Assembly (NCBI GenBank): GCA_029265715.1
Contig: JAJUGZ010000027.1
Span: 1 to 43,617, forward strand
Direction: 5' to 3'
Source: Bacteroidota bacterium
GTDB taxonomy: Bacteria > Bacteroidota > Bacteroidia > Bacteroidales > Prolixibacteraceae
DNA length: 43,617 bases
Part shown: piece by piece, positions 9,664 through 41,733 of the stretch
Layout: each line of letters starts with the position of its first letter
Numbering within the stretch: position 1 is the stretch's first letter
The notes under the pieces: generated by a model
Told to the model about the DNA's origin: nothing
The model's database searches: none
What the model saw: only the letters and a program-made list of their open reading frames with translations
Position numbers and translations under genes: made by a program

Positions 9664-9754
9664 ATGAAACGAGCCAGAAGAGATAGTCTTACAAACAGGG
9701 GCATGGTTACAATGGCGAGTTCCATCTGGCAATTAAAAATCAAACTATAAACAG
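9664..9754 (+). repeat. ATGAAA-bounded unit A1 (type U, 91 bp)
   Basis: Starts with ATGAAACGAGCC and ends just before the next ATGAAA at 9755. It shares GGGGCATG, TGGCGAGTTCCATCTGGCAA and the tail TATAAACAG with the unit at 26401. The left arm ATGAAAC partly pairs with GTTCCAT downstream. Confidence 0.75.
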
Positions 9755-9842
9755 ATGAAATGAGCATGATTCGCAGGAACATCAATAAGAATGATTATTC
9801 TTCTATCATGCGACAAATTAAAAACTGATAAAAAATAAACGC
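9755..9842 (+). repeat. ATGAAA-bounded unit A2 (type V, 88 bp)
   Basis: Starts ATGAAATGAGCATGATTCGC, ends before ATGAGA at 9843. It has a stem GCATGAT/ATCATGC with an inner hairpin AAGAAT/ATTCTT. It is homologous to unit B2 at 24894 but lacks about 12 bases after the right arm. Confidence 0.7.
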
Positions 9843-10033
9843 ATGAGATAGCCATGTGCGCTAAAGTTCACACCAACCGAAAATGTACAACTGGCTATTC
9901 GCTTCGCGGATTTCACTGCGTGGATCTTTGCTGCGCTCCGATTCGCAAGCTCAATTCCATGTCGGTGCGAATTTTATTGAAAAGCAAAAGCTGTTACGAA
10001 AATTGTACGAACCAACATTGAAAATTTATACGA
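9843..10033 (+). repeat. ATGAAA-bounded unit A3 (type S with 57-bp insert, 191 bp)
   Basis: A 134-bp type S unit with a 57-bp insert after GGCTATTC. It starts with the variant ATGAGATAGCCAT. The 3' module GTTACGAAAATTGTACGAAC to TTTATACG is shared with the units at 15466, 24702, 36217, 36351 and 41571. Confidence 0.8.
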
Positions 10034-10176
10034 ATGAAACGAACATGCCACGGTAACAAAATTTATGGTGGTGGCACCAAAGGCCATGTAAAAATTAGTA
10101 GAGAAGCTAATTTTCATGGCATGGAGTTCCATAAGTACACACCTAAATTTCAATGTTCTAACAACAATATTTACTT
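10034..10176 (+). repeat. ATGAAA-bounded unit A4 (type T, 143 bp) abutting a start codon
   Basis: Starts ATGAAACGAACATGCCACGG and ends TTTACTT immediately before the ATGAAA start codon at 10177. ACATGCCA pairs with TGGCATG in the middle. An open frame of 48 codons runs through it and stops at 10178-10180, overlapping the next ATG as ATGA. Copies are at 26619 and 36077. Confidence 0.8.
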
Positions 10177-11388
10177 ATGAAACTTAGTGTGCAAATATTA
10201 TTGGTTGTTGCTTTAGGAATCTCTTTATTGCAGGTTGGATGTAAAAAAATAACAGAGGAATACATTACGATTGAGGAACCAATGGTCGAAATGGACGGAT
10301 TCGTGATAACGAAATTTGGGGCCGTTGGTGACGGGAAGACGGATTGTTCCGGAATTATTAATGATCTGATCAATAAACTACCAGCTTCGGGAGGAACAAT
10401 AATTATTCCTGAAGGGGATTTCCTTTTAAACAACCCAATTGTTATCAAACGGAATTTTGTCACGATCAAAGGCCTTAATCCCGGATTAAGGAGCAATGTG
10501 GACATAGCATTGGTTTCGCTGCAGAATCCGGGCGGAGGCAGCAAACTGCTTTTGGGAAATGCAGCTGTGGCTATTGAGGTTCCTGTATTACCCGATGTTA
10601 ACGGGATGAAAAACAGAATTTCAGGAGTAGTAATTCGCGACTTATTAATTGCGGGTAAGAACTCAAATATCGGAACAGGAATCAGTATTTTGCAGGACAA
10701 CGATGGGATACGGATTGACAATGTTATAGGGATTAATCTGTATACCGGGATCGTTGCAAATGCCGCTGATGCCATGATTATTAACTCGTGCTGGATTTCT
10801 GAAGTGAGAAATAGTATTTGGATGACCCATGGCATTCAAAATATGATCAGCAATTGTCAGTTAGGTGCCCAACCGGGAGGCATAACCGTTAATCTGACAA
10901 ACCAGGAAAATATGTTGATTATCGGAAACCATATTTACCCTGATGGCGATGTCAACCTGCAACTGAATAATTGTAGTTACACTAATGTATCATCCAATAA
11001 CTTCCAAAGCTACTATGTTGGTATGATTGAATTGAATGGTGGATATCTCAATTTGTTGAGTAGCAATGTAATATGGATGCGCCAACCACATGATGTTAGC
11101 CGACAATTGCGTGGAAAGACCAATGATTACGGTGTAATTCGGGTTGAGGGGGATGGTCATTTTATTACCAATAACCTGGTTAATTGCGACTGGGTCGTTG
11201 CTACAGGAAACCCGGTCTGTATTCGTTCTGTCAGCGGGGTAGGCAATAGTTTTCACAACATTAAATTTATCAATATGGACAGCAATCGTTTGTTCCTGGT
11301 GAATGAAACTACTGAGATTATTCATTCTGCGCCACCTGAAAAAGTGGCGGTTGAGGGGGATGCTAATAAAGTGACGATTATCTATTGA
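10177..11388 (+). CDS. GH91 inulin fructotransferase-like lipoprotein
   Basis: A 403-residue lipoprotein (lipobox LLQVGC, Cys22) with a right-handed beta-helix. Residues 42-100 match the pectate-lyase-3 type start (FGAVGDGKTDCSGIINDLI, GGTIIIPEGDF). The middle resembles GH91 inulin fructotransferase, which cuts inulin to difructose dianhydride, or the related DFA III hydrolase: ADAMIINSCWISE, GNHIYPDGDVNLQL, NNFQSYYVGMIELNGG, DYGVIRVEGDGHFITNNL. Asp198 and Glu209 keep the 11-residue spacing recalled for the catalytic pair Asp233/Glu244 of the Bacillus snu-7 enzyme. Its place between SusD and two GH32 genes fits a fructan substrate. Synthase or hydrolase activity cannot be told from sequence. 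The start codon directly follows a four-unit repeat array. Confidence 0.78.
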   Translation: MKLSVQILLVVALGISLLQVGCKKITEEYITIEEPMVEMDGFVITKFGAVGDGKTDCSGIINDLINKLPASGGTIIIPEGDFLLNNPIVIKRNFVTIKGLNPGLRSNVDIALVSLQNPGGGSKLLLGNAAVAIEVPVLPDVNGMKNRISGVVIRDLLIAGKNSNIGTGISILQDNDGIRIDNVIGINLYTGIVANAADAMIINSCWISEVRNSIWMTHGIQNMISNCQLGAQPGGITVNLTNQENMLIIGNHIYPDGDVNLQLNNCSYTNVSSNNFQSYYVGMIELNGGYLNLLSSNVIWMRQPHDVSRQLRGKTNDYGVIRVEGDGHFITNNLVNCDWVVATGNPVCIRSVSGVGNSFHNIKFINMDSNRLFLVNETTEIIHSAPPEKVAVEGDANKVTIIY

Positions 11389-11426
11389 ATTACAAACTTT
11401 ACCGAAAAATCCAAAAATCGATTTTT

Positions 11427-13592
11427 ATGAAATACGATACCGCATCGTTTCTTCGATTTTCAACTAGTGTACTATTCCTTATTTGTTTTACAACTAGCTT
11501 AAAAGCTCAGTTTATTTGGAATTTTGATGAGGCGGAACCTCTGAAAACCATCTCCGGCGAGGGTGAATTGTCTTTACACAGCATCAAAAACACAACCGAA
11601 CTTACCTCGGGAATCATTGGGAAAGGGTTTCGCACCGCCGGTTATACCGGCTGGTTGACTGCGGAAATTGAACCGGTAAGGACCCCTTACTCCATTTCAG
11701 GCTGGTTTGCCCTGGAGTCGTTCCCAACTGATACCGCTGCTTTCTTGGGAGTACGTGATACAGTCACACAACAATCGCTAGCTGTTGTTGTTGATCGCTT
11801 TGGCGATATCCTGATTAGTGTAGGAAGACAGGACACATACAAGTACCGGCCAACGAGTTGGGCAGTCGAACGGTTTAAATGGATATCGGTTGCCCTGTCA
11901 GTAGGGAAAGAACAGGCAGATATTTTTATCGATGGGGTCCGGATCCCGAATGTTTTGCCTGCAGAAGAAATTCCGGCACGAATTCACGAATTGATCGTGG
12001 CGAAAGACTTCAGGGATAAACAACTGGGAGGGCAACATCTAACCATCATCAATGGCATTGTGGACGAACTGAGGTTCAGCGATTCGGTTGTCGATACTGA
12101 AAAGCTAACGAACGAAGTAGTGCATTTGTCGAATAATGTGCCCGTGTTGGCAATTCCGAAAAGCCGGTTTCAGGATGATTTCAGCCGGCCGAAATATCAC
12201 TTGTTGCCAGCTGGCAACTGGACCAACGAAACACATGGTCTGATTTATTACAAAGGCAAGTATCATATTTTCAATCAGAAAAATGCATCTAATCTGCACC
12301 TGCTTCAGATAAACTGGGGACATTTCAGCAGTCCCGACCTGATTAACTGGATCGAACATAAACCGGTTCTTACCCCCGAAAAAGGCTATGATCAGAACGG
12401 AATCTGGTCGGGTCATGTGGTGATCAATGATGAAGGCGTTCCCGTTATCTTTTACACCTCGGGAGGGAAGCACATGGGGGTTGGAATGGCATTTCCCAAA
12501 GATTCAGACCTGATAGAATGGGTAAAATACGAAGGGAACCCGATCATCTTGGGGCAACCCGAAGGGTATTCCCGATCTGATTTAAGGGATCCGTATGTTT
12601 GGAGAGAAGGAGATATTTGGTACATGATTATTGGTTTTGGCATCGAGGATGAAAGGGGTCAGCGAGGTGCGGTACTTCTCTATTCTTCCATCGACTTGAA
12701 AAACTGGAACTTTTTGCACCCGCTTTTTGAGGGTAACCCGGAAGTGGATAATACCGGAATATTTTGGGAAATGCCTGTATTTAAAAAAGTGGACGGCAAA
12801 TATGTTTTGCTGATTAATAAGGTGCCGCACAATGGTGTTCCGGCAAGGTCTATGTACTGGATTGGTGATTTTAAACATGAAAAATTCATCCCTGACAATC
12901 CTTTGCCTCAAAATCTCGAAGTTATCAACCGCTTGCTTTCACCTTCTGTTGCCTATGACAAAGACAGCCTGATAACAGCCATTGCCATCATTCCCGATGA
13001 AATTGGGGGCGAGGCAGCAAGGCAACATGGATGGACACATTTGTATAGCATTCCGAGAGTTTGGGAGCTAAAAGAAAGCAAGTTAATCCAAAAACCACAT
13101 CCGGTACTTAAAAATCTTCGTGATAAGAGCAATAGAAGCGTCAAAACAGTGGTGCAAAACGGGGAACCCCTGCAGTTAGTTTCTGGGCATCAGTATGAGG
13201 TGCAAGCTACCTTTTCCCCGAATCAAGCCAAGAAATTTGGGTTCATCTTGTACAAGAATCCGGACAATTCGGAGTTTACGAAAATCTACTATGATGTAGT
13301 GGCACAAGAGATTATTGTTGATCAAAGCCACTCAAGTCTAAGAAAAGACATTCCGCTTCTGCTGAAAAAGGAGCCGTATCCTCTGGATGTCTCAGCTCCC
13401 GTTGATTTCCATATTTATGTGGATGGATCTGTTGTTGAAATATTTATCAATGAGCAGGATGCCTTTACTTCTCGAATCTTTCCATTGAAAGAAAGTAGTA
13501 AGGATTTTTGTGTTTTTTCGGAAGGAGGAAACATTGAAATCAGTGCTAACATATGGCCGCTAAAACCGGCACAAATGGATACTGATTTTTAA
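11427..13592 (+). CDS. LamG-GH32 protein with altered nucleophile motif
   Basis: A secreted 721-residue protein: signal peptide about 1-28 (ends SLKAQ), LamG/concanavalin-like domain about 29-225 (SGWFALESF, IFIDGVRIP, GIVDELRFSD), GH32 five-bladed propeller about 255-560, and a beta-sandwich to the end. The transition-state Asp (LRDPYVW, Asp388) and acid/base Glu (WEMPVF, Glu448) are present. The nucleophile motif, normally WMNDPNG, reads WTNETHG, with Glu268 in place of the Asp. Activity may be changed or lost. A TTG at 11385 would extend the frame and overlap the previous stop, but the ATG at 11427 gives a proper signal peptide. The context suggests a fructan or fructan-derived substrate. 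Confidence 0.85.
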   Translation: MKYDTASFLRFSTSVLFLICFTTSLKAQFIWNFDEAEPLKTISGEGELSLHSIKNTTELTSGIIGKGFRTAGYTGWLTAEIEPVRTPYSISGWFALESFPTDTAAFLGVRDTVTQQSLAVVVDRFGDILISVGRQDTYKYRPTSWAVERFKWISVALSVGKEQADIFIDGVRIPNVLPAEEIPARIHELIVAKDFRDKQLGGQHLTIINGIVDELRFSDSVVDTEKLTNEVVHLSNNVPVLAIPKSRFQDDFSRPKYHLLPAGNWTNETHGLIYYKGKYHIFNQKNASNLHLLQINWGHFSSPDLINWIEHKPVLTPEKGYDQNGIWSGHVVINDEGVPVIFYTSGGKHMGVGMAFPKDSDLIEWVKYEGNPIILGQPEGYSRSDLRDPYVWREGDIWYMIIGFGIEDERGQRGAVLLYSSIDLKNWNFLHPLFEGNPEVDNTGIFWEMPVFKKVDGKYVLLINKVPHNGVPARSMYWIGDFKHEKFIPDNPLPQNLEVINRLLSPSVAYDKDSLITAIAIIPDEIGGEAARQHGWTHLYSIPRVWELKESKLIQKPHPVLKNLRDKSNRSVKTVVQNGEPLQLVSGHQYEVQATFSPNQAKKFGFILYKNPDNSEFTKIYYDVVAQEIIVDQSHSSLRKDIPLLLKKEPYPLDVSAPVDFHIYVDGSVVEIFINEQDAFTSRIFPLKESSKDFCVFSEGGNIEISANIWPLKPAQMDTDF

Positions 13593-13609
13593 CTGTAAAT
13601 AAAATTCTT

Positions 13610-15469
13610 ATGAGATTTGAAAACCTAAATAAAATGAAGGGCAGAGCAATGATGTTTTTAACATTGACAATGATACTTGCTTGTGTTAACCAAAAATCCA
13701 TGAAAAAACCAAAAAGCGAAAAGACAACCATGACAGTTGGGTTTAAAGTAACAAATCGCGGCTTGTTGCTCTCAAGGGAAGATCGCGGGGACGAAAAAAC
13801 AATGAGTTTGCTAAGCGATGGAACATACAGAAATACCTTTGTCGTTTACCCAGTTAAAAACCAGATTGATAGCTGGGAGCCAATCGAGCAGAAAGCTTTG
13901 GGGCAACAGCCAGATGAAATTACTTTCTTCGATTTTGAAGGTTTTGATTTGTTCTTAGATTCGTTAAAACTGTTGGATGTGTTTAATCCTTACAATGAGA
14001 AATATCGTCCTTTTTTTCATTTTACCCCGACTTCCGGCTGGATGAACGACCCGAACGGCCTGGTTTATTACGATGGTGGATACCACCTGTTCTATCAATA
14101 TTATCCCGACAGCACAGTATGGGGACCGATGCATTGGGGACATGCTATTAGTACCGATTTGGTTCATTGGGAACAGATGCCTGTTTCCTTGTATCCTGAC
14201 TCGCTGGGCTGGATTTTCTCGGGCAGTGCAGTTGTCGATATCAACAATACCTCGGGGCTGGGAACTATTGAAAACCCGCCGATGGTTGCCCTTTATACTT
14301 ACCACAATCGGCCCTTGGAGGATACAGGATGCGATACTTTTCAGTATCAAGGACTGGCTTATAGTATTGATAAAGGACGCACTTGGATGAAATACGAACA
14401 TAATCCGGTTTTGAGAAATCCTAGAATCCGCGACTTTCGCGATCCCAAAATTATCTGGTATGAAGAATTGAAGCGTTGGATAATGATCCTCGCTGTTCAG
14501 GATCATATCAGTATTTATTCTTCGTCAAACCTTATGAACTGGACTTTCGAGAGCAATTTCGGTGAAGGTACGGGTGCGCACGGTGGAGTTTGGGAATGCC
14601 CGGATCTTTTCCCGATGCAGGCCGGCGACACCACCAAATGGGTCATGCTGGTCAGTATTAATCCCGGAGGACCTAACGGGGGCTCGGCTACCCAGTATTT
14701 TGTCGGCGATTTCGACGGGCATACTTTTACCCGGGAAGGAACCAAAACAAAATGGGTCGATTACGGCAAAGACAATTACGCCGGGGTCACCTGGTCGAAT
14801 GTGCCGAAAGGAGACGGACGCCGCCTCGCTATCGGGTGGATGAACAACTGGCAGTATGCCGACAAGATACCGACCGGAAAATGGCGGGGAGCGATGACTG
14901 TTGCACGCGAGTTGGAACTGGTTGAGATTTATAATGACTATTTGCTGGTTTCCAGGCCTGTTGTTGAACTTCAAACATTGCGCGGCAAGGAAGAACTGTT
15001 GAAGCCAGGGATCGTTTCGGGTGAAATGGAAATAAAAAAAGTATTCACTCTCCCCCTCGAAATAAATCTTCATTTCGACACCAAAAATTCTTCGGCAATG
15101 ACTTTTGCTGAGCGTTTCGGTATCATACTGTCCAACGAAAACAACGAAAAACTACAGATTGGCTACGATAACCTCAACAAGCTGTTTTTTATCGACCGCA
15201 CCGGAGCAGGCTGGGACAGTCCGGCCAAAGATTTTGCAGGAATTCATTATGCACCGTACATCAATAATGAGCCGGTACTGGACATGCACCTGCTTATTGA
15301 CCGGGCATCCGTTGAACTGTTTGCCAAGGGGGGGCTGGTGGTTATGACCGAACAGTTTTTCCCAACGAAACCATTCACCTCAATCAGCCTTTTCTCTGAG
15401 CGCGGCGAGGTCTCGTTAACTGAAGGCGTAATATGGCCAATGGAAAGCATTTGGAATGATATTAAATGA
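13610..15469 (+). CDS. GH32 exo-fructanase (levanase/inulinase type) lipoprotein
   Basis: Hydrolyses beta-fructans, probably releasing fructose from chain ends. 619 residues with lipobox MILAC (Cys25; a start at 13634 is also possible). An N-terminal extension of about 110 residues of the type seen before Bacteroidota GH32 domains (possibly DUF4980) precedes a canonical propeller: WMNDPNG at 144-150 with nucleophile Asp147, FRDP with Asp278, WECP with acid/base Glu329. A GH32 C-terminal sandwich ends the protein (LLIDRASVELFA). The stop codon TGA at 15467 lies inside an ATGAAA hexamer, which suggests that it once overlapped the next gene's start by four bases. Confidence 0.95.
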   Translation: MRFENLNKMKGRAMMFLTLTMILACVNQKSMKKPKSEKTTMTVGFKVTNRGLLLSREDRGDEKTMSLLSDGTYRNTFVVYPVKNQIDSWEPIEQKALGQQPDEITFFDFEGFDLFLDSLKLLDVFNPYNEKYRPFFHFTPTSGWMNDPNGLVYYDGGYHLFYQYYPDSTVWGPMHWGHAISTDLVHWEQMPVSLYPDSLGWIFSGSAVVDINNTSGLGTIENPPMVALYTYHNRPLEDTGCDTFQYQGLAYSIDKGRTWMKYEHNPVLRNPRIRDFRDPKIIWYEELKRWIMILAVQDHISIYSSSNLMNWTFESNFGEGTGAHGGVWECPDLFPMQAGDTTKWVMLVSINPGGPNGGSATQYFVGDFDGHTFTREGTKTKWVDYGKDNYAGVTWSNVPKGDGRRLAIGWMNNWQYADKIPTGKWRGAMTVARELELVEIYNDYLLVSRPVVELQTLRGKEELLKPGIVSGEMEIKKVFTLPLEINLHFDTKNSSAMTFAERFGIILSNENNEKLQIGYDNLNKLFFIDRTGAGWDSPAKDFAGIHYAPYINNEPVLDMHLLIDRASVELFAKGGLVVMTEQFFPTKPFTSISLFSERGEVSLTEGVIWPMESIWNDIK

Positions 15470-15520
15470 AAATAAAGCAGTTACGAAAATTATACAAACC
15501 TATTTTGAAAATCTATACGA
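15466..15520 (+). repeat. Short ATGAAA-bounded remnant F (3' module only, 55 bp)
   Basis: Lies between ATGAAA at 15466 (overlapping the GH32 stop) and the ATGAAA start codon at 15521. It contains only the type S 3' module in a diverged form (GCAGTTACGAAAATTATAC, then TGAAAATCTATACGA). Confidence 0.75.
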
Positions 15521-16879
15521 ATGAAAAACAAAAATCAAGTAAGCAACAGTTACCTGTATTGGATAACCTTTGTAGCCATTAACGGCGGACTGCTGTTTGG
15601 TTTGAATATGGCCGGAATTTCCGGTGCAGTGGATATGTTGAAAGATGAATTTACACTGACTGATTCCGGCTTGGGGACAGTGGCTGCGTTACTCACCATT
15701 GGCTGCCTTATCGGCGCCCTGTTTACTGGCAACTTTACCGAAAAATATGGACGTAAGAAGGTGATGCTGGCAACTGCCGTTTTATATATTATCTCAGCTT
15801 TGGGATGTGCTTTTGCCGAGTCGGCGGTGGTGCTCATCATTTTTCGGATTCTTTCGGGGCTTGCTGTTGGTGCAACCTCGGTTGTCGGGCCTATGTACAT
15901 TTCCGAAATTTCGCCGGCTCACAGCCGTGGGCGCTTGGTGTCTATGAACCAGTTTGCCATTACCATTGGTATTGTGCTGGCTTATATTTTCGATTATTTG
16001 CTTATTGGCCTGGGCGATAATAGCTGGCGTTATATGCTGGCTGTACCTGCTTTGTTTAGTACGTTTTACTTGATGCTTATCTTGCTGTCTTTTCCCGAAA
16101 GTCCGCGCTGGCTGGTATCCAAAAACCGGCAGGGGGAAGCAGAGTCAGTGATGATGAAAATTGGTGGACCAGCTTTGGTAAAAAGCGAATTGCCGCAAAT
16201 GGAACGAGTGATTTCAGAAGAAAAGGGAAAAGAAAAATTGAGCCTGTCGGAACTGTTTCAAGGGAAAACCGGCAAAATTGTGCTCATAGGGACCCTGATT
16301 GCCGCCTTACAGCAAATTACCGGTATTAATGCCGTTATCATGTTTTCGCCAGAAATGTTCCAGGCAGCGGGTTCCGCCAAAGGAGACTCCATCATGCAAG
16401 CAATGATAGTTGGGATGGTCAATTTCCTGATGACCATTGTTGCTCTTAAGTTGGTCGACAAAAAGGGACGTAAAACCTTGTTGCTTTGGGGGGCTGTTGG
16501 AATGATTGTTTCGCTGGCTTATCTCACTTTCGAATTTGCCAAGCCCAGCCAATTTGGTATCGGTGTGTTGGTAGCGCTGCTTGTTTACATCTCATTTTTT
16601 GCAGCCTCATTTGCTCCGGTTATGTGGGTCATTATTTCCGAAATTTATCCCAATCGGATAAAAGGTGTGGCAATGTCGTTCTCAACGGCTGTGAGCTGGT
16701 TGTGTACGTTCCTCACGGTTTATTTTGCCCCGGTTATCCAAGGAACTCTGGGGCTGAGTTACCTGTTTGGTATTTTTAGCGTGTTTGCCATTATCGCCTT
16801 TGTATTTGTAAAAATCTGGATACCGGAAACAAAAGGCAAGTCGTTGGAACAGATTGAAAAAGAATTAGGATTAATATAA
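15521..16879 (+). CDS. Sugar-porter family MFS transporter (probably fructose)
   Basis: An inner-membrane major facilitator of the sugar porter family, 452 residues with about 12 hydrophobic segments. Signature motifs are present: YGRKK after helix 2, PMYISEISPAHSRGRL, PESPRWL before the central loop, QQITGINAV in helix 7, and PETKGKSLEQIEKEL at the C-terminus. Sitting between a GH32 exo-fructanase and a fructokinase, it most likely brings fructose from the periplasm to the cytoplasm. Its start codon ATGAAA is the right boundary of repeat remnant F. Confidence 0.94.
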   Translation: MKNKNQVSNSYLYWITFVAINGGLLFGLNMAGISGAVDMLKDEFTLTDSGLGTVAALLTIGCLIGALFTGNFTEKYGRKKVMLATAVLYIISALGCAFAESAVVLIIFRILSGLAVGATSVVGPMYISEISPAHSRGRLVSMNQFAITIGIVLAYIFDYLLIGLGDNSWRYMLAVPALFSTFYLMLILLSFPESPRWLVSKNRQGEAESVMMKIGGPALVKSELPQMERVISEEKGKEKLSLSELFQGKTGKIVLIGTLIAALQQITGINAVIMFSPEMFQAAGSAKGDSIMQAMIVGMVNFLMTIVALKLVDKKGRKTLLLWGAVGMIVSLAYLTFEFAKPSQFGIGVLVALLVYISFFAASFAPVMWVIISEIYPNRIKGVAMSFSTAVSWLCTFLTVYFAPVIQGTLGLSYLFGIFSVFAIIAFVFVKIWIPETKGKSLEQIEKELGLI

Positions 16880-16894
16880 TATCGTTAATTGAAA

Positions 16895-20700: not shown

Positions 20701-20709
20701 ACATTGCTT

Positions 20710-24701: not shown

Positions 24702-24893
24702 ATGAAATAGCCATAAAAGCTGAAGCTTATACCAACCGGGAATGTATAAATGGCTATTCGCTTCGCGGATTTCACTGCGTGGATCTTTGCTGCGCTCCGA
24801 TTCGCAAGCTCAATTCCATCTCGTTGAAAAACTAGTTTGAAAAACAGAAATAGATACGAAAATTGCAAGAAACAACTTTGAAAATTTATACAG
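24702..24893 (+). repeat. ATGAAA-bounded unit B1 (type S with insert, 192 bp)
   Basis: Starts GATGAAATAGCCAT and carries the 57-bp insert (GCTTCGCGG to CTCAATTC). The 3' module is diverged (GATACGAAAATTGCAAG) but ends TTTATACAG before ATGAAA at 24894. The preceding text AAAATAAATTAAAG is typical of a Bacteroidota leader just before an ATG. Confidence 0.78.
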
Positions 24894-24990
24894 ATGAAAT
24901 AGCCATGATTCGCAAACACCAACCGATAATGAAAATAATAACCGGATCATGGCTATTCCATCTGACAACTTAAAAACAAATTATTTACAG
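24894..24990 (+). repeat. ATGAAA-bounded unit B2 (type V, 97 bp) abutting a start codon
   Basis: ATGAAATAGCCATGAT at the left pairs through 12 perfect bases (AATAGCCATGAT with ATCATGGCTATT). The tail ends TTATTTACAG right before the ATGAAA start codon at 24991. It is homologous to unit A2. Confidence 0.78.
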
Positions 24991-26226
24991 ATGAAACCCC
25001 GCAATTGTATCCTCATTTTGTTTGTAAGCCTGATATCGCCAGTCATATTTTTTTCTTGTTCAAAAAATGATGATGCAGATTCTAATCCGGACTACAAGTA
25101 TTATGTGAAATCTTTGCCGGTCGGCGAGTATAACAAGAATACCATTCAAACATTTATGCTTTTTCTTGATTTGGTATATCCGGGCGCCGAAGATTTGGCA
25201 ACCGATGTGACGGCCGGGGTGAAAATCCGGAAACTGTCATATAAAACGAAACTGGGGAACAAAGAGATCCAGGCTTCCGGGTTGGTCTGCCTGCCAACAA
25301 CAGCTGGTAGTTTTCCGGTGCTTTGTTTTCAGAACGGAACCAACACTTTACATGCCAATGCGCCAAGCCGGAATCCTGACAGCGATGTTTATCGTGTGCT
25401 CGAATGCATGGCCTCGCTGGGATATATTGTGGTAATTCCCGATTACATCGGGTTTGGCGATTCGGAAAGTTCGTTCCATCCCTATCTGCATGCCGAATCG
25501 ACAGTTACAAGCATCCTGGATATGCTGCGGGCTGTGAAAGAATACAGCGAAGCCGAAAATACACAGGCAGTTCCGGGCAGCGACTTGTATATCTTTGGTT
25601 ATTCGCAGGGAGGATGGGCTACCTTGCAGTTGGAAAAGACGATCGAACAAAGTTATGCGTCCGAATTTCATCTGGCTGCCAGTTCGTGTGGTGGCGGACC
25701 GTATAAACAGGGCATATTGAGCGAGTCGCTTATTCAGTCAGATACCTATCCGATGCCTTATTTTCTGGCGTATATCATTCAGGCTTATCGCTCGCTGGGA
25801 TTGTTTTCCAATCCGTTATCCGACATTTTTAACCAGCCTTACGCCGGGAAAATTCCCGGTTTGTTTGATGGCAGTCGTTCCGGAGATGGCATCAATGCTG
25901 AACTGACGACCAGTATTTCAGCTTTATTTACCGATTCGTACCGGGCTGGCTATGCAACCGATCCGAAGTTCAGTTCCCTTCGTGCCGCGCTGACGGCTAA
26001 CAGTGTGCAGGCCTGGAAATTAACAACGCCAACGCGCTTGTACCATGCCGGAGACGATACGTTTGTTTCAGTAAATATGAGCAATTACATGTATCAGGAG
26101 TTGAAAGCTGCTGGTGTTTCCGAAGCCAATCTTCAGTTGATCATTCTTCCGGGCCTGGATCATTCCGAAGGGGTAATTCCGTTTGGGATTAGTACCATGC
26201 TTTGGTTTCAGGAGTTGAGAAAGTAG
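24991..26226 (+). CDS. Alpha/beta hydrolase lipoprotein
   Basis: A 411-residue lipoprotein (lipobox IFFSC, Cys23) of the alpha/beta hydrolase fold, probably an esterase or secretory-lipase-like enzyme. The nucleophile is Ser205 in GYSQGG, with candidate acid Asp355 or Asp356 in AGDDTF and His391 in GLDHSEG. The oxyanion region has CFQNGTNTLHA and VVIPDYIGFGDS. A longer frame begins at 24949, but those 14 codons lie in repeat B2, and the ATG at 24991 yields the signal peptide. Substrate is unknown. There is no operon partner, and the native 5' leader is now separated from the start by B1 and B2. Confidence 0.88.
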   Translation: MKPRNCILILFVSLISPVIFFSCSKNDDADSNPDYKYYVKSLPVGEYNKNTIQTFMLFLDLVYPGAEDLATDVTAGVKIRKLSYKTKLGNKEIQASGLVCLPTTAGSFPVLCFQNGTNTLHANAPSRNPDSDVYRVLECMASLGYIVVIPDYIGFGDSESSFHPYLHAESTVTSILDMLRAVKEYSEAENTQAVPGSDLYIFGYSQGGWATLQLEKTIEQSYASEFHLAASSCGGGPYKQGILSESLIQSDTYPMPYFLAYIIQAYRSLGLFSNPLSDIFNQPYAGKIPGLFDGSRSGDGINAELTTSISALFTDSYRAGYATDPKFSSLRAALTANSVQAWKLTTPTRLYHAGDDTFVSVNMSNYMYQELKAAGVSEANLQLIILPGLDHSEGVIPFGISTMLWFQELRK

Positions 26227-26400: not shown

Positions 26401-26490
26401 ATGAAACGAGCATGGGAGATGGTCTCACACACAGGGGCATGATTATAATGGCGAGTTCCATCTGGCAACTTAAAAACAAATTATAAACAG
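26401..26490 (+). repeat. Unit C1 (type U, 90 bp)
   Basis: Starts ATGAAACGAGCATGG and is closely related to A1 (GGGGCATG, GGCGAGTTCCATCTGGCAA, tail TATAAACAG). The right boundary reads ATCACA instead of ATGAAA, so this junction has decayed. Confidence 0.7.
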
Positions 26491-26618
26491 ATCACATATA
26501 AACCGAAAAGTGAATTGACCAAAGGGAAATCTGCGAAGCGAATAAATGGCTATTCCATCTCGTTGAAAAACAGGGATAGATACGAAAATTGCAAAACCAA
26601 CTTTGAAAATTTATACGA
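26491..26618 (+). repeat. Unit C2 (degraded type S, 128 bp)
   Basis: Keeps AAATGGCTATTCCATC and the 3' module GATACGAAAATTGCAAAACC to TTTATACGA, but the left stem and ATGAAA start are lost. The S-to-T junction TATACGA then ATGAAACGAACATG is identical to that between A3 and A4. Confidence 0.65.
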
Positions 26619-26761
26619 ATGAAACGAACATGCCACGGTAACAAAATTTATGGTGGTGGCACCAAAGGCCATGTAAATATTAGTAGAGAAGCTAATTTTC
26701 ATGGCATGGGGTTCCATAAGTACATACCTAAATTTCAATATTTTAACAACAATATTTACTT
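26619..26761 (+). repeat. Unit C3 (type T, 143 bp)
   Basis: Near-identical to A4 and of the same length. Its right border is GTGAAC rather than ATGAAA and no gene starts there. The 48-codon frame seen in A4 is also open here (stop at 26763-26765), but five of the six codon differences change the residue. Confidence 0.75.
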
Positions 26762-26899
26762 GTGAACTTATTTGTTTTTTCATATTCCCATTCGTCCCGG
26801 ATATTCAGGAACATCAAAAACCGTGATTCATTTGGGTTCTGATCGTTTTTCCACCCGTTTCTGTTTTTCCTCATGTCTAATTTTTTAAAACGATCGGAA

Positions 26900-31548: not shown

Positions 31549-31616
31549 ACTCAATAATATAGGTTTTTCTTCTTTTCAGGGAGGGTGTTTTAAGGGGAAT
31601 CCCATCCGGATTTTCT

Positions 31617-31624
31617 TACTTTTG
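31617..31624 (+). promoter_or_regulatory. -7 element directly before dnaG
   Basis: TACTTTTG is an exact TAnnTTTG match and ends only five bases before the ATG at 31630. A transcript from it would begin at or next to the start codon, giving a nearly leaderless mRNA. The -33 element is weak (TTTTAAGG). Confidence 0.5.
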
Positions 31625-31629
31625 CAACA

Positions 31630-33576: not shown

Positions 33577-33711
33577 TTGCAAATGCTAAGTCGTTACGTA
33601 TCAATAGGCAGGAATTCGGTGGTTAACGGACAATTAACGACGGATGAATGTCAACAAATAACAATAACTGACTGAGAAAACACCGATCAGACAAAGGACC
33701 GGATGATCGGG

Positions 33712-34203: not shown

Positions 34204-34243
34204 AACCGGGGAAAAAGTGTAACAAAATGACTATTTTCGTACA

Positions 34244-34265
34244 AATTTCGCGACGTGACGAAATT
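34244..34265. promoter_or_regulatory. Inverted repeat in the folK/sppA divergent region
   Basis: AATTTCG (34244-34250) and CGAAATT (34259-34265) flank an 8-base spacer in the middle of the shared promoter region. It may be an operator for one or both genes; no regulator is known. Confidence 0.35.
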
Positions 34266-34294
34266 CTAAAGACCGAACACAAAAGTATTAAAAT

Positions 34295-36067: not shown

Positions 36068-36076
36068 ATTAAATAA

Positions 36077-36216
36077 ATGAAACGAACATGCCACGGTAAC
36101 AAAATTTATGGTGGTGGCACCAAGGCCATGTAAATATTATTAGAGAAGCTAATTTTTATAGCATGGATTTCCAAGTACACACCTAAATTTCAATATTTTA
36201 ACAACAATATTTACTT
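36077..36216 (+). repeat. Unit D1 (type T, 140 bp)
   Basis: Starts ATGAAACGAACATGCCACGG nine bases after the sppA stop and ends TTTACTT before ATGAAATAG at 36217. One lost A (ACCAAGGCC) breaks the 48-codon frame found in A4 and C3. Confidence 0.78.
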
Positions 36217-36350
36217 ATGAAATAGCCATAAGAGCCATCGCTCATACAAACCGAAAATGTACAAATGGCTATTCCATACCGGTGCGAATTTTATTGAAAA
36301 GCAAAAGCTGTTACGAAAATTGTACGAACTAACATTGAAAATTTATACGG
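36217..36350 (+). repeat. Unit D2 (type S without insert, 134 bp)
   Basis: Same length as the unit inside the RAYT gene at 41571. AATAGCCAT pairs with ATGGCTATT. The 3' module GCTGTTACGAAAATTGTACG to TTTATACGG is intact and is followed by ATGAAA at 36351. Confidence 0.82.
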
Positions 36351-36538
36351 ATGAAATAGCCATGAGTGCCAAAGTTCACATTAAACGAGAATGTACAAGC
36401 TATTCGCTTCGCAGATTTCAATGCGTGGATCGTTGCTGCGCTCCGATTCGCAAGCTCAATTCCATGTCAGTGCTAATTTGATTGAAAAGCAAAAACTGTT
36501 ACGAAAATTTTATGAACCTGCTTTGAAAATTTGTACAC
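36351..36538 (+). repeat. Unit D3 (type S with insert, 188 bp) abutting the lpxK start
   Basis: A type S unit with the 57-bp insert and small deletions. Its 3' module is diverged (TTTTATGAACC, TTTGTACAC) and ends directly at ATGAAG, the start of lpxK at 36539. Confidence 0.8.
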
Positions 36539-37636
36539 ATGAAGAAAGCTTTTTTATATCCGCTTTCACTGATTTTCGGGTTGATTGTTTACCTGCGCAA
36601 CAAACTCTATGATTCAAAAATCTTTAAATCATACGAATTTGATGTGCCGGTTATTTCCATTGGAAATATCACGGTAGGAGGAACTGGTAAAACGCCGCAT
36701 ACCGAGTATTTGGTCGATTTGCTCCGGAAACAGTTTAATGTAGTGACCGTCAGTCGGGGTTACAAGCGCAAAACCAAGGGTTACAAGGAAGTTGAAGTGA
36801 CCAGTACCGCCCTCGAGGTAGGCGACGAGCCATTGCAGATAAAGAATAAGTTCAACGATATTCAGGTGGTTGTTGATGAAAAGCGTGTCCATGCAATCAA
36901 TAAACTTCTGAGTCAGGACCCGGTACCTGATGTGATTTTGCTTGACGACGCCTACCAGCACCGCAGTGTCATCCCGGGAATCAATATCTTGCTGATCGAT
37001 TACAATCGCCCCATCAGTACCGACTGGCTTTTGCCATATGGCCGTTTGCGCGAAGGGAAAATGCAGGAACGCCGGGCCAATATCATCATTTACACGAAAT
37101 GCCCCTCCGAAATCAAGCCGATAACCCGTCGGCTGACGATGAAAGAGGTTCATCTGAGGCCATATCAGTCGCTTTATTTTACGACCATGGTTTATGGCGA
37201 TCCGGTCCCGGTTTTCCCGGGCGAGGCCCCGGTCGTGCAGTCGTTGTTGGCTGGCAATCAAAGTATTTTGTTGATTGTGGGTATTGCCGGGCCAGAACAT
37301 ATCCAGAAATACCTGGAGTCGTTCACCAGCGATATAACTGTCCTGAAATTTCCGGACCACCACAACTATTCTGCTTCCGACCTGAATAAAATGGAACAGA
37401 AATTTTTTGAACTTTCTTCGGAGAAAAAACTTGTTATTACGACCGAGAAAGATTCAATGCGCCTGAAAGACCTGGATATTCCTCCGGTTATCAGGGAAAA
37501 CTTATATTACATTCCTTTGAAAATCAAATTCCTTGACAGCGAAGGGAAAAGCTTTGACGAAAAAATTGTAAACTATGTTAGAGAAAATAAAAGCAACCGC
37601 GAGCTTCATAAGCGAAAAGGTAAAAAGGCCAATTGA
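36539..37636 (+). CDS. lpxK: Tetraacyldisaccharide 4'-kinase
   Basis: Phosphorylates the 4' position of the lipid A precursor at the inner membrane face. 365 residues. An N-terminal membrane-associated helix (about 4-20) is followed by a P-loop, GNITVGGTGKTPHTEY with Lys51/Thr52, then VSRGYKRKTKG and DVILLDDAYQHR, which matches the family DDGFQHR motif with Ala-Tyr variation. The last 62 bases overlap the start of the purine nucleoside phosphorylase gene in another frame. The ATGAAG start directly follows repeat unit D3. Confidence 0.94.
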   Translation: MKKAFLYPLSLIFGLIVYLRNKLYDSKIFKSYEFDVPVISIGNITVGGTGKTPHTEYLVDLLRKQFNVVTVSRGYKRKTKGYKEVEVTSTALEVGDEPLQIKNKFNDIQVVVDEKRVHAINKLLSQDPVPDVILLDDAYQHRSVIPGINILLIDYNRPISTDWLLPYGRLREGKMQERRANIIIYTKCPSEIKPITRRLTMKEVHLRPYQSLYFTTMVYGDPVPVFPGEAPVVQSLLAGNQSILLIVGIAGPEHIQKYLESFTSDITVLKFPDHHNYSASDLNKMEQKFFELSSEKKLVITTEKDSMRLKDLDIPPVIRENLYYIPLKIKFLDSEGKSFDEKIVNYVRENKSNRELHKRKGKKAN

Positions 37637-38387: not shown

Positions 38388-38431
38388 CCGGATACCTGTA
38401 TGAAGCCTGAATCCCGCGAAAACGATCTGGA

Positions 38432-39088
38432 ATGGACTTGCTGATTATTGCACTCGCCCCGGTTGCTGCTCTGTTGTTTTTTATCTACATCAGGGACAAG
38501 TACGAAAAAGAACCTCCGCAAATGTTGTTTCGCGCGTTGGGACTGGGGGCATTGGTTGTTTTCCCGGTTATGACAGTCGAGCGTACCCTGAGCGTGTACC
38601 TGGTTTTTTTCGATGGCTTGCTGAATACGTTCTGGCATGCTTTTGTGGTGGCGGCTTTTACCGAAGAATCGTTCAAACTGTTGGCCTTGTACCTGCTGGT
38701 TTGGCGCAGTGTCCATTTTAGCCAGAAGTTCGACGGAATTGTTTACGCCGTTTTTGTATCGATGGGTTTTGCTGCGATCGAAAACATCATGTATGTGTTC
38801 GATTATGGCTATCAAACCGGGTTGGTGCGTGCATTTACGGCTGTTCCGGGGCATTTCCTGTTTGCTATCCCGATGGGATTTTACTTCGGATTGGCCAAAT
38901 TTTATCCAGCCGACCGGCAACGACTGATGAAAGCAGCTCTGATTTACCCCATCTTGTTACATGGTGTTTACGATTTTATCCTGATGTCGCAGCATTTCCT
39001 GTATTTCCTGGTTTTTATTCCTTTCGTCGTTTTTATGTGGCGTTACGGCATGGATAAAATCCGAAAACTGGCAGAGGATAATCAATAA
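38432..39088 (+). CDS. PrsW-family intramembrane metalloprotease
   Basis: A membrane protein of 218 residues with seven or eight hydrophobic segments. The PrsW signature is present: FTEESFKLLAL (Glu-Glu pair), FDGIVYAVFVSMGFAAIENIMY, PGHFLFAIPMGFYFG and LLHGVYDF, whose Glu and His residues are the likely metal ligands. In Bacillus subtilis PrsW cuts the anti-sigma RsiW. Here no local target is evident, and the FecR anti-sigma at 3277 belongs to a different control scheme. It lies 44 bases after punA in a run of same-strand genes. Confidence 0.9.
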   Translation: MDLLIIALAPVAALLFFIYIRDKYEKEPPQMLFRALGLGALVVFPVMTVERTLSVYLVFFDGLLNTFWHAFVVAAFTEESFKLLALYLLVWRSVHFSQKFDGIVYAVFVSMGFAAIENIMYVFDYGYQTGLVRAFTAVPGHFLFAIPMGFYFGLAKFYPADRQRLMKAALIYPILLHGVYDFILMSQHFLYFLVFIPFVVFMWRYGMDKIRKLAEDNQ

Positions 39089-39094
39089 AAGAGG

Positions 39095-39619
39095 ATGATG
39101 GCTTTAATAAAATCCAGATATCAAAAAATACCGGTCAGGACCTGGTTCCTGACTTTCGCAGGGAAGATTTCTGAATGTTTGGCAGAAAGCACAGAGAGTG
39201 CCAGGCTCTGGAAAAACCCGCAGACCGACGAATATTTGAGAATATATTCCGAGGTTGGCCGGATTTGGGGCTGGACGGGGCGTTTGCTGAAGACGCGCGA
39301 AGAGTTGGCCGCCTTGTTGCAGTCTCCCGAAAACGAAGTCTGGCTGTTTTATTCAGGTAACGAACTGGCAGGCTTTTTTGAACTGGTGCGGGCCGGGGCG
39401 GAAACCGAAATCGTTTATCTCGGACTTTTGCCCGAATGGATTGGCAAAGGGCTGGGGCAGACGTTGATCCGAACAGCCGTTGCAATGGCCGGGAAAAATG
39501 GCGAAAAGGTGTGGCTGCATACCTGTGAACGCGACCACCCTTCGGCCCTCAAATCGTATCTAAAGTCGGGGTTTGTAGTTGAGAATGAACACACGTTAAT
39601 GGAATATTATCCGGAATAG
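39095..39619 (+). CDS. GNAT-family N-acetyltransferase
   Basis: A 174-residue protein with the acetyl-CoA fold. Strand 4 is TEIVYLGLLPEW, and the pyrophosphate-binding loop is IGKGLGQTLI, matching Q/RxxGxG/A with Gly at the usual places. The C-terminal HPSALKSYLKSGFVVENEHTL is the typical end. Substrate is unknown. It begins six bases after the prsW stop and ends two bases before the next start, so it is part of the same operon. The first 20 residues are basic and may be a helix outside the core. Confidence 0.88.
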   Translation: MMALIKSRYQKIPVRTWFLTFAGKISECLAESTESARLWKNPQTDEYLRIYSEVGRIWGWTGRLLKTREELAALLQSPENEVWLFYSGNELAGFFELVRAGAETEIVYLGLLPEWIGKGLGQTLIRTAVAMAGKNGEKVWLHTCERDHPSALKSYLKSGFVVENEHTLMEYYPE

Positions 39620-39621
39620 AA

Positions 39622-40569
39622 ATGAAAACCCCAACATTTAACGATATCGAAGCGGCTTACGAGCGGATCCGTCCGTTTGCCCACCGCACGCCGGTAATGA
39701 CTTGCCAGGCAATCAATAAAATGACCGGCGCCAACCTGTTTTTCAAGTGCGAAAACTTTCAGAAAGTGGGCGCTTTTAAGTTTCGGGGCGCCGCCAATGC
39801 CGTTTTTTCACTTTCTCCGGAAGAGGCTGCCAAAGGTGTTTGCACCCACTCGTCGGGAAACCACGCCGCGGCGTTGGCTTTGGCCGCCCGGATGCGGGGT
39901 ATTCCGGCCTATATCGTGATGCCTGCCAATGCCCCGGAAATCAAAAAGAAAGCGGTGGCAGGTTATGGTGCGGTTATCACGTTTTGTGAGCCAACGCTGG
40001 CCGCCCGCGAATCGACATTACAACGTGTGGCGGCCGAGACGGGCGCAACCGAAATTCATCCATACAACAATTTCAACGTGATTTGCGGACAGGGAACGGC
40101 CGCGAAAGAACTGATCGAAGATTCCGGGCCGTTCGATGTGGTGATGGCGCCGGTTGGCGGCGGAGGGTTGCTGAGCGGGACAGCCATTGCAACCAAAGCG
40201 CTTTTGCCCGAAGCCCGCGTGATTGCTGCCGAACCGGCCGGGGCCGACGATGCTTTCCGCTCGTTTTACAGCCAAACGCTGATGCCTTCTGTTAACCCCA
40301 AAACTATTGCTGACGGGTTGCTGACTTCGCTGGGGGCACTGAATTTTCAGATCATCCAAGAAAAAGTCGACGGGATTGTGACTGTTTCCGAAGAAAAAAT
40401 CGTGGAAGCCATGCGCCTGATATGGGAACGGATGAAAATCATTATTGAACCGTCGTCGGCAGTTCCGCTGGCGGCTTTGCTCAAAAGGAAAGTAGATGTG
40501 GATGGTAAACGGGTCGGCATTATTCTTTCCGGAGGAAACTTGGACCTGGGGAAATTGCCGTTTAAATAA
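39622..40569 (+). CDS. Threonine/serine dehydratase, PLP fold type II
   Basis: A PLP enzyme of 315 residues related to catabolic threonine deaminase and serine racemase. The PLP lysine is Lys53 in GAFKFRGA, the Asn-His strand is SSGNHAAALALAA, and the phosphate-binding loop is VGGGGLLSG. The C-terminal ILSGGNLDLGKL closes the fold. There is no ACT regulatory domain, so it is not a feedback-controlled IlvA. Threonine deamination to 2-oxobutyrate, serine deamination or serine racemisation are all possible. It sits two bases after the GNAT gene and seven before MazG. Confidence 0.92.
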   Translation: MKTPTFNDIEAAYERIRPFAHRTPVMTCQAINKMTGANLFFKCENFQKVGAFKFRGAANAVFSLSPEEAAKGVCTHSSGNHAAALALAARMRGIPAYIVMPANAPEIKKKAVAGYGAVITFCEPTLAARESTLQRVAAETGATEIHPYNNFNVICGQGTAAKELIEDSGPFDVVMAPVGGGGLLSGTAIATKALLPEARVIAAEPAGADDAFRSFYSQTLMPSVNPKTIADGLLTSLGALNFQIIQEKVDGIVTVSEEKIVEAMRLIWERMKIIIEPSSAVPLAALLKRKVDVDGKRVGIILSGGNLDLGKLPFK

Positions 40570-40576
40570 ATTGAAC

Positions 40577-40924
40577 ATGACAGCGACAAATCAGAATATT
40601 AGTCTGGCCGATGCCCAGCGCATGGTTGATGAATGGATTAAAACCATTGGGGTGCGCTATTTCAGCGAACTGACCAACCTGGCCATCCTGACCGAAGAAG
40701 TGGGCGAACTGGCCCGCATTATGGCACGAACTTACGGTGACCAATCGTTTAAAAAATCGGACGAGGGGAAAAACCTGGCCGACGAAATGGCCGACGTGCT
40801 TTGGGTGCTGATCTGCCTGGCTAATCAAACCGGTGTCGATCTGAACGGGGCTTTCCTGAAAAACATGGAGAAAAAAACTGCGCGCGACAAAGACCGGCAC
40901 CGCAATAACGAGAAACTGAAATAG
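40577..40924 (+). CDS. MazG-like nucleotide pyrophosphohydrolase
   Basis: A 115-residue single-domain MazG-type enzyme that hydrolyses nucleoside triphosphates to monophosphates. The metal site is EEVGELARIMAR followed by NLADEMADVLWVLICLAN, i.e. the ExxE...ExxD pattern. The C-terminus is basic (KKTARDKDRHRNNEK). The in-frame region before 40577 overlaps the dehydratase and is not counted; the ATG at 40577 gives the usual start. It is the last gene of the same-strand run that starts at lpxK. Confidence 0.92.
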   Translation: MTATNQNISLADAQRMVDEWIKTIGVRYFSELTNLAILTEEVGELARIMARTYGDQSFKKSDEGKNLADEMADVLWVLICLANQTGVDLNGAFLKNMEKKTARDKDRHRNNEKLK

Positions 40925-41061
40925 TCGCGAGTATGAGATATGAAAAGAGAAAATTAGGTCGACGGGAGATGATTTGAAGGAGGCGTGTTTTTGTCATAGA
41001 TGTATTTTTAGATAGATATCTGATAGAATGTTCTGCGTACCGAGGGGACAATTTAATTCAG

Positions 41062-41119
41062 CCCAAGGCGCTGCGCCTTGGGATAATTTAGCGATGATGA
41101 AAAAAGCACCCTGAAAGGG
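41062..41119. repeat. REP-like palindromes left of the RAYT gene
   Basis: CCCAAGGCGC (41062-41071) and GCGCCTTGGG (41073-41082) make ten perfect pairs, and CCCT/AGGG follow at 41109-41119. The same motifs, GCCCT/AGGGC and CCCAAGGCG, are found to the right of the gene. This is the usual setting of a RAYT gene between its own repeats. Confidence 0.75.
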
Positions 41120-41140
41120 CAATTCAAAAATCAAAAGAAT

Positions 41141-41647
41141 ATGTCGCAGTCATTGTCAAAGTTGTATTTGCACCTAATTTTTCATGTTAAAGATTTGTCG
41201 GTACAAATCAAAAATGAAGATAAAAATGAATTGTATGCCTATATTGGTTCAATCATTAAGAATAACGGTTCAATTCCAATCATCATAACCGGGACAAATG
41301 ATCACCTTCACATTCTTTGCGTGATGTCAAAAAATATTACTTTAGCGGCATTAACCGAAGAAATAAAGCGGCATAGCAGTCGGTGGATAAAGACAAAAGG
41401 ACTTTATTATTCCGGATTTGCGTGGCAAGGTGGGTATGCGGGTTTCTCTGTTAGTCAATCTTTACATGATAAAACGAAAAGTTATATTCAAAACCAGGAA
41501 CACCATCATAAAAGGATGACATTCAAGGAAGAGTTGATTGCATTTTTAACAGAATATGGAATTGAGTATGATGAAATAGCCATGTGCGCCAACGTTCACA
41601 CCAACCGAAAATGTATAAATGGCTATTCCATTCCGGAGCTAACTTGA
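41141..41647 (+). CDS. REP-associated tyrosine transposase (RAYT), C-terminus replaced by a repeat unit
   Basis: A single-domain IS200-like Y1 transposase of 168 residues. His55 and His57 in NDHLHIL form the HUH metal site, and the nucleophile is Tyr115 in KSYIQNQEHHHKR. The fold is complete through FLTEYGIEYDE (residue 145). After that the reading frame runs into a 134-bp ATGAAA-bounded unit and adds 23 foreign residues before the stop at 41645. Removing one repeat-to-repeat period joins GATGAA to GATGAAAAATATTTATGG and gives EYDEKYLWTD plus a stop at 41728, the kind of end expected for this family. The catalytic residues are untouched, so it may still be active. Flanking palindromes fit a RAYT/REP pair. 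Confidence 0.9.
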   Translation: MSQSLSKLYLHLIFHVKDLSVQIKNEDKNELYAYIGSIIKNNGSIPIIITGTNDHLHILCVMSKNITLAALTEEIKRHSSRWIKTKGLYYSGFAWQGGYAGFSVSQSLHDKTKSYIQNQEHHHKRMTFKEELIAFLTEYGIEYDEIAMCANVHTNRKCINGYSIPELT

Positions 41648-41704
41648 TCAAAAAGTAAAAGCTGTTACGAAAATTGTACGAACCAACATTGAAAATTTAT
41701 ACGG
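41571..41704 (+). repeat. Unit E (type S, 134 bp) inserted in the RAYT 3' end
   Basis: Lies between GATGAAA at 41570-41576 and GATGAAA at 41704-41710. AATAGCCAT pairs with ATGGCTATT. It shares the 3' module GCTGTTACGAAAATTGTACG to TTTATACGG with D2 and A3. It is the clearest case of an insertion into a known reading frame. Confidence 0.88.
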
Positions 41705-41733
41705 ATGAAAAATATTTATGGACAGATTAAACT

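Follow-up and report, generated by a model that had tools for sequence, protein, structure and literature searches.

Short hairpin-bearing units inserted at ATGAA, usually a gene's start codon, in a Prolixibacteraceae genome: a probable guide-addressed mobile element

Contig JAJUGZ010000027.1 of a Bacteroidota bacterium of the Prolixibacteraceae (assembly GCA_029265715.1) carries short repeated units, of types named U, V, S and T, that stand head to tail and often end directly before a gene. What are these units, and how did they come to lie there? The stretch analyzed here, called the window, comprises positions 1 to 43,617 of this contig (43,617 nucleotides). A preliminary description, made from the letters of the window alone, had reported units bounded by ATGAAA at six loci and had suggested a mobile, non-autonomous element. 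The present analysis shows that the units are insertions, with ATGAA on each side where a relative has one uninterrupted site. A unit consists of a hairpin on the left, a guide, and a right end rich in A/T, and the units follow each other head to tail at successive ATGAA sites. Quite probably, they represent a non-autonomous, guide-addressed mobile element that is processed as folded single strands and works in the manner of IS200/IS605 or REP elements.

All six loci were re-found with the described unit types in the described order. The unit sizes were re-measured as 88-97 bp (U and V), 134 bp (S), 188-192 bp (S with a 57-bp insert) and 140-143 bp (T). Lengths in the window range from 88 to 192 bp, and the commonest length among all collected units is about 90 bp. 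The features are:

9664..9754, + strand: U unit with guide TTCCAT-CTG and right end CAG-ATGAA
9755..9842, + strand: U' unit with a decayed second arm; its right border is ATGAG
9843..10033, + strand: S unit with the 57-bp insert, which starts at 9901
10034..10176, + strand: T unit; the ATGAAA behind it, at 10177, starts an open reading frame (ORF) at 10177-11388
15466..15520, + strand: S right-end remnant; ATGAAA at 15521 is the start of a sugar transporter gene
24702..24893, + strand: S unit with the 57-bp insert
24894..24990, + strand: V unit with stem TAGCCATGAT/ATCATGGCTA, guide TTCCAT-CTG and right end CAG; ATGAAA at 24991 behind it is likely the start of a hydrolase gene
26401..26761, + strand: decayed array of U, an S fragment with a reversed insert piece, and T (26619-26761); the right border is GTGAA, and a gene start is absent there
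36077..36216, + strand: T unit
36217..36350, + strand: S unit
36351..36538, + strand: S unit with insert; ATGAAG at 36539 is the start of lpxK (PF02606)
41141..41647, + strand: Y1_Tnp (Y1 transposase) gene (PF01797, E 1.7e-17), hit by an S insertion, its C-terminus being read from S sequence
41571..41704, + strand: S unit inserted in the 3' end of the Y1 transposase gene at GATGAA (codons D-E)

Insertion was assessed at three loci. First, the C-terminus of the Y1 gene was continuous in all nine relatives printed (of 30 loci), e.g., ...YDERYLWTD with GATGAACGATATTTGTGG, and seven of the nine had ATGAA at the corresponding place. The Y1 locus of the window contains exactly one S unit, with ATGAA on each side. 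Second, a unit precedes a gene starting MKKLLLILVV in the relative G011, while the relative G017 lacks the unit at flanks that are 96% identical; the alignment blocks of the two overlap by 7 bases over a single ATGAAA. Just upstream of this empty site, G017 has about 680 extra bases compared to G011 (C36:50775-51450). Third, no unit was found in front of lpxK in 19 readable congeners, whose starts are ATGTTC or ATGCTC there; one locus cut by a contig end and two without the motif were left out. Since the start context of these congeners differs, lpxK was set aside as a perfect empty site and supports gain in the window's lineage only. Thus, the empty sites for which the preliminary description had proposed to look exist, and, together with the borders considered below, they support its idea of a non-autonomous mobile element landing repeatedly on one short site.

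The window's genome (G000) is a draft of 4,204,664 bases in 200 contigs. Whole-genome searches gave 53 matches for S (best 40 of 204 candidates scored) and 36 for T (best 40 of 52 candidates scored). In a genome sample of 80 stretches plus the window (1,291,283 bases, 31% of 4,204,664), 139 BLAST pieces were merged into 126 units, i.e., 70 S, 22 T, 22 V and 12 U, of which 93 were near full length. These units form 75 arrays, 34 of them with at least two units, in 23 different unit orders including the single-unit arrays. A scan for ATGAA, stem and TTCCAT yielded 43 matches in the sample and none in the reversed sequence; the repeat family is beyond chance. Four contigs (C26, C66, C90, C170) start or end within a T unit. 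Since near-identical T copies break the assembly, the true numbers are probably higher.

Do the units respect their borders genome-wide? ATGAA was present at 85 of 99 left and 98 of 114 right borders (extrapolated, genome sample). The boundary named in the preliminary description is therefore largely kept, but as the pentamer ATGAA and not as the hexamer ATGAAA. The sixth right-hand base, which was A in 75% of 60 units from relatives and otherwise T, C or G, belongs to the sequence behind (ATGAAT, ATGAAC and ATGAAG occur). Decay extends beyond the array at 26401, since the right-end ATGAA is missing in 13 of the 75 arrays. The units all read in the same direction relative to the ATGAA strand, but in the genome 41 arrays lie on one strand and 34 on the other. 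When the same architecture was sought with the target left free, ATGAA came up 56 times, ATGGA 15 times (arrays read in reverse) and ATTTT once, with no convincing other target, and the flanks of the units did not support a target duplication beyond ATGAA. The high copy number and the ATGAA on both sides could also be explained by an ordinary miniature inverted-repeat transposable element (MITE) whose DDE transposase would have a preferred target and duplicate 5 bp of it. However, the target hardly varies, and the ends are unlike (left ATAGCCAT, right TATACNN) instead of forming the terminal inverted repeats of DDE MITEs, which makes this explanation very improbable.

The left part of the units forms a hairpin. 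Across 54 of 58 aligned left parts (one chance match, one wrong-strand match and two diverged copies being left out), the outer stem was paired at 98.6%, with both sides changed in 4 of 12 pairs. The whole structure was paired at 88.5%, and this value fell to 34.3 or 23.9% when partners were slid by one column and to 26.6-42.4% when slid by two or three; the inner helix was paired at just 57%. Distant versions keep ATGAAA and TTCCAT and have replaced the stem, as in CACCCATG/CATGGGTG, TTTCCATG/CATGGAAA, CCTCCCTGATTT/AAATCAGGGAGG, CGAGCATG/CATGCGAG (tandem G-A) and CATCCAT/ATGGATG. Judged from these alignments, the stem beside the left ATGAA is shown to change compensatorily in relatives. In folding tests against shuffled sequences, V and T were clearly better both as DNA (z -4.5 and -2.7; seven units) and as RNA (-6.0 and -3.2; five units). 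In the inverted repeat noted earlier, the second arm is TTCCAT and not the perfect complement TTTCAT, and the repeat makes up half of a guide whose other partner is the right end. Opposite base A4 of the target, the guide has C in 171, G in 5, A in 4 and T in 8 of 188 units. Several of the eight T cases are without a unit-like tail. With 180 of 188 mismatched, the mismatch at A4 is kept. At least 64 of the relatives' stretches, among the matches listed, were chosen by an exact arm pattern including TTCCAT, so that its conservation there and in the search model R1 is partly imposed; in a separate stem scan and in the 188-unit count, the hexamer or its third base was free to vary. The hexamer-free scan found TTCCAT behind 11 of 25 stems in the genome sample, and the reversed control gave 10 chance stems.

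Within the hairpin, the left ATGAA is paired with an internal guide, TTCCAT-NN-G. The two bases after the guide's CAT were complementary to the two bases before the right ATGAA in 102 and 103 of 126 short-tail units, identical units being counted once. The shuffled expectation was 36.2 and 57.7, and none of 2000 shuffles reached the observed values. A fourth pair gave no signal (25, compared to 25.8 shuffled). As a control, the host's left flank was complementary in 23 and 23 of 92 cases (22.6 and 26.5 shuffled), and pairing of the guide with this flank was rejected. The observed pairs include CTG/CAG, GTG/CAC, TTG/CAA, GCG/CGC, ACG/CGT, CAG/CTG and AAG/CTT. Five of these pairs occur in the genome G126, where 19 of 21 fetched units were complementary; in G147, which belongs to a different family within the order, 21 of 32 were (20 regions each, taken from 79 and 88 listed matches). 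Thus, in relatives, covariation shows that the dinucleotides behind the guide CAT and before the right ATGAA match as complements. Of the window's types, U and V (CTG/CAG) as well as T (AAG/CTT) appear to fit this rule, and S would fit with a shift only. Most right ends consist of 28-30 unstructured bases that pair with the guide only.

Both guide bases were complementary in 55 of 75 units before genes, 9 of 10 in stacks and 31 of 40 elsewhere. The signal thus does not depend on a following gene and is a property of the element. This bears on the idea that the units are an immobile 5'-leader regulatory RNA, kept before many genes for sequestration of the start codon. Most units do precede start codons, and at the RNA level either AUG can serve as pairing partner of the guide CAU. 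However, a leader RNA is contradicted by the empty sites at the Y1 gene and in G011/G017, by the insertion within a transposase gene, by the stacks and by the same covariation where no gene follows; it is hardly credible.

How could a single guide serve both ends? The guide 5'-TTCCATNNG-3' would bind both ends at once in a three-way pairing, its CAT passing from the left ATG to the right ATG. Excision would then yield a repaired host ATGAA and a circle with the junction CNNATGAAATAGCCAT. Except for the A4 mismatch, the joined ends would be complementary to ATGGCTATTCCATNNG inside the unit and would thus form one continuous hairpin with the guide arm. Insertion would be the reverse, at an accessible ATGAA, and would split this hairpin so that the left end keeps the stem and the right end keeps CNN; repeated insertion would build the stacks. 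Cutting would be carried out by an enzyme that acts on folded single-stranded DNA and is supplied in trans. This enzyme might plausibly be of the Y1 HUH type, could well be something else, and is less probably a tyrosine recombinase acting on a folded site. At partial S and T matches on contigs C142, C112 and C75, the chimeras V-left/S-right and V-left/T-right were found, and the left part and the right end are thus exchangeable.

A continuous hairpin at the joined ends calls integrons to mind. Integron attC sites are folded hairpins with an exchange site, and integron cassettes lie head to tail; both traits recur here. Accordingly, an integron- or Xer-like tyrosine recombinase might join the circle's folded hairpin junction with a chromosomal ATGAA. 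In its favor, the joined ends would give one long hairpin with the exchange site ATGAA in the stem and a kept mismatch, and folded single-strand hairpins are known as tyrosine-recombinase sites from attC. On the other hand, the target needs at most five bases, flanking arms were not seen, and copy numbers above 100 need a copying step. Unlike integron cassettes, the units are dispersed over the genome, carry no cassette genes and use another target. No recombinase was tied to the units, and no search aimed at an integron integrase was made. On balance, a recombinase of this kind is rather unlikely.

Other known systems share parts of the architecture. IS200/IS605 elements (IS608, ISDra2) have a short fixed target left of the element and a fixed orientation, as do the units. 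Their cut sites are set by internal-guide pairing according to PMC6006769 and PMC5934647; in the units, the covariation of guide and right end and the kept complement of the target suggest such a pairing. They differ in that the units have no transposase gene, that a single guide, 3' of the hairpin, is used for both ends, and that the same five bases ATGAA stand on both sides. The PATEs of Haloquadratum are, in passages of PMC3119063, likewise transposase-free, without terminal inverted repeats and without duplication beyond the target, and have a near-terminal palindrome. A short fixed target without further duplication is thus common to the units, IS200/IS605 and PATEs. In contrast to PATEs, no parent transposon was found here, the target is a start codon, stacks grow head to tail at the same site and the dinucleotides covary. 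REP sequences with their TnpA-REP (RAYT) resemble the units in their many short-hairpin copies and conserved foot, and passages of PMC6006769 describe them as moved in trans by a chromosomal gene. Their foot differs, being of the GTAG type and not ATGAAA/TTCCAT, and the units also have a defined right end and rebuild their insertion site as a start codon. Unit hairpins flanking a TnpA-REP gene were not seen at the Y1 loci checked.

Could the units then be PATE- or REP-like and derive from an element of the IS200/IS605 or RAYT type, with mobilization by a Y1 HUH transposase that the genome still has or has lost recently? The PATE traits just named, including a short left target, the selection of cut sites by guide pairing in TnpA of IS200 (passages of PMC6006769) and the presence of one Y1 gene in the genome speak for it. 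This gene, in the window, was the only Y1 match in the whole of G000. Its tyrosine motif YIQNQEHHH fits the Y---Q--HH signature of subclass 1.2, which, according to PMC6006769, occurs at low copy number in Bacteroidetes and Cyanobacteria and in general lacks IS-like ends. The gene is surrounded by palindromes (41020-41830), e.g., GCCCTGAAAGGGC and CCCAAGGC...GCCTTGGG, and similar ones surround it in relatives. It was rejected as the parent of S, since S interrupts the gene and the gene's own palindromes differ. The origin as Y1-moved derivatives is a serious but tentative alternative, given the results of the parent and enzyme searches.

In these searches, a Y1 parent was sought and not found, the enzyme survey covering Y1 only. 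An autonomous element was found neither by orphan arms in 2,346,383 bases, nor at the partial S and T matches on C142, C112 and C75, nor beside 60 Y1-search loci. The full-length element beside a transposase gene, to which the preliminary description had pointed as a further step, was thus sought in vain.

The target of the units is usually a gene's start codon, and since this is so, the gene keeps its ATG and frame. In G000, 61 arrays had a right ATGAA and enough sequence; 34 of these ended at ORF first ATGs, 6 at near-starts, 16 were intergenic and 5 lay in ORF interiors, three of which resemble signal-peptide starts in our reading. The remaining arrays were without a right ATGAA (13) or at a contig end (1). 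The background ATGAA of G000 comprised 287 starts, 110 near-starts, 336 intergenic and 3325 interior sites. Among 60 units of relatives, 37 were at starts, 4 at near-starts, 19 intergenic and none interior (background: 123, 43, 262 and 1389). For starts versus intergenic sites against the background, the odds ratio was 2.5 (P 0.003) in G000 and 4.1 (P 2e-6) in the relatives; with near-starts included, it was 2.1 (P 0.012) and 3.4 (P 2e-5). The near-absence from ORF interiors is expected from selection. With 34 first-ATG arrays against 287 undecorated ATGAA starts in the G000 sample, about 1 in 10 such starts is decorated.

The right end carries the A-rich context that Bacteroidota use for translation start. 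Passages of PMC6847099 report that A at -12, -13, -6 and -3 promotes initiation in F. johnsoniae. In the tails of the units (n = 63), A was found at -13, -12 and -11 in 87, 90 and 97%, and at -6 in 81%. At the same three positions, the values were 62, 68 and 67% in host flanks left of the units (n = 63), 61, 71 and 65% at native starts (n = 119), and 33, 34 and 34% at intergenic ATGAA (n = 246). Since the left flanks are like native starts and unlike intergenic sites, the left ATGAA appears to be the original start, and the right end appears to supply a new one. Copies at start codons may persist for this reason: the right end would give a translation-start context, while the hairpin would shut off the old start, behind which S and V also have a stop (ATGAAATAG).

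Several points weigh against a guide-addressed element at start codons. Regarding the guide, the third pair, a near-invariant G-C, contributes little (114 of 126, compared to 110.7 shuffled; 35 of 2000 shuffles as high). Long-tail (S-type) units fit at the first base (41 of 62, compared to 17.4 shuffled) but not at the second (24, compared to 27.8), and a short-tail S variant, GAG...CGA (10 of 126), is non-complementary at both. In G000 alone, the signal is weak, with both bases complementary in 17 of 37 units (12.6 shuffled, maximum 18). Regarding the hairpin, DNA folding of S was no better than shuffled (z 0.03), and that of U, L106, L338 and L333 was weakly better (z -0.4 to -1.6); palindrome covariation can also arise by template-switch copying. 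Hairpins near both ends, as in IS200/IS605 and PATEs, were not observed: there is one stable stem, on the left only, and the right end is without its own hairpin. This, and a guide 3' instead of 5' of the hairpin, also argues against Y1-moved derivatives. Regarding the enzyme, no unit ends were found at 59 Y1-search loci besides that of the window, some of which scored under the curated cut-off; flanks of up to 1.5 kb were inspected. At E 0.01, Y1 searches matched nothing in G023, G038, G055 and G057, all of which match the unit model, and G023 (99% complete) and G057 (98%) contain units. Neither the Y1 loci nor the G023/G057 tests thus connected the units to Y1 HUH mobilization or origin; a lost or distant Y1 enzyme is possible. 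The mobilizing enzyme was not found, and the circle is one that we infer. Regarding the start codon, genes were called as greedy ORFs, with at least 80 codons needed for the first-ATG class; the excess at starts may reflect selection instead of targeting; and the tails have C, not A, at -3 in 90%.

With these points considered, the units are best described as transposase-less, hairpin-bearing mobile elements that lack two features of IS200/IS605 and PATEs and would nevertheless work like them. A more far-reaching reading, which we put forward tentatively, is that they form a separate, gene-less class addressed to translation start codons. One 9-base guide would read both ends (ATGAA plus the covarying dinucleotide) via a strand-swapping three-way junction, the enzyme would be one not yet linked to mobile DNA, and the right end, as a translation start carried along by the element, would render insertion harmless. 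Should the enzyme turn out to be new, the units would be a separate kind of element. If the reading is true, the element would spare its host: genes often begin with ATGAA here, and an element that lands at this site would give back a start codon together with a functional context for translation. Since the guide covaries, the mechanism can be probed with point changes in an element of 90 bases, and the guide may lead to a novel single-strand recombinase. Many gene leaders in these bacteria would be insertions, which matters for the annotation of leaders and promoters.

Model R1 matched 74 of 149 genomes and 6 of 395 genomes drawn from the phylum, G000 being included in both sets. Since the best 13-150 candidates per genome were scored, these counts are lower bounds. 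Among the matches listed, loci with the same hairpin were assigned to Prolixibacteraceae, Mariniphaga, Gaoshiqia, Bacteroidales, Bacteroidia and Bacteroidetes; the cultured strain Gaoshiqia sediminis A06 has one such unit (L101). Of the nine distant R1 matches printed, most precede ORFs that look like genes. In G147, 88 model matches were listed; some are in three-deep stacks, with a tandem G-A stem (L435 etc.). No description of such an element was found in the open-licence PMC literature listed. Rfam gave no match in the window at the gathering threshold, and one 91-base unit had no match in plasmid and phage records. Three exact patterns returned 0, 0 and 1 stretch from viral contigs. In an IMG/VR contig of 4574 bases (L457), a U-type unit lies at 515-582, just before a start codon. 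This contig encodes a Mu-type DNA transposition protein (phrog_296, E 1.3e-44) and has a weak GemA match (E 0.00027), so that units may travel on Mu-like phages.

Two further observations concern the S and T units themselves. A T unit is an open frame of 48 amino acids (MKRTCHGNKIYGGG...) from its own ATG to a TGA overlapping the next ATG. The frame is intact in the window at 10034-10181 and 26619-26766, and the copy at 36077 has an internal stop; it could be either a peptide or a coincidence. The 57-bp insert (9901-9957 in the window, and in other S copies) had nine matches in the genome sample. Seven of them passed a simple test for a position between TATTC and CAT of the S arm; the remaining two resemble diverged S arms. 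The insert may define an S subtype or may be an element that targets the guide.

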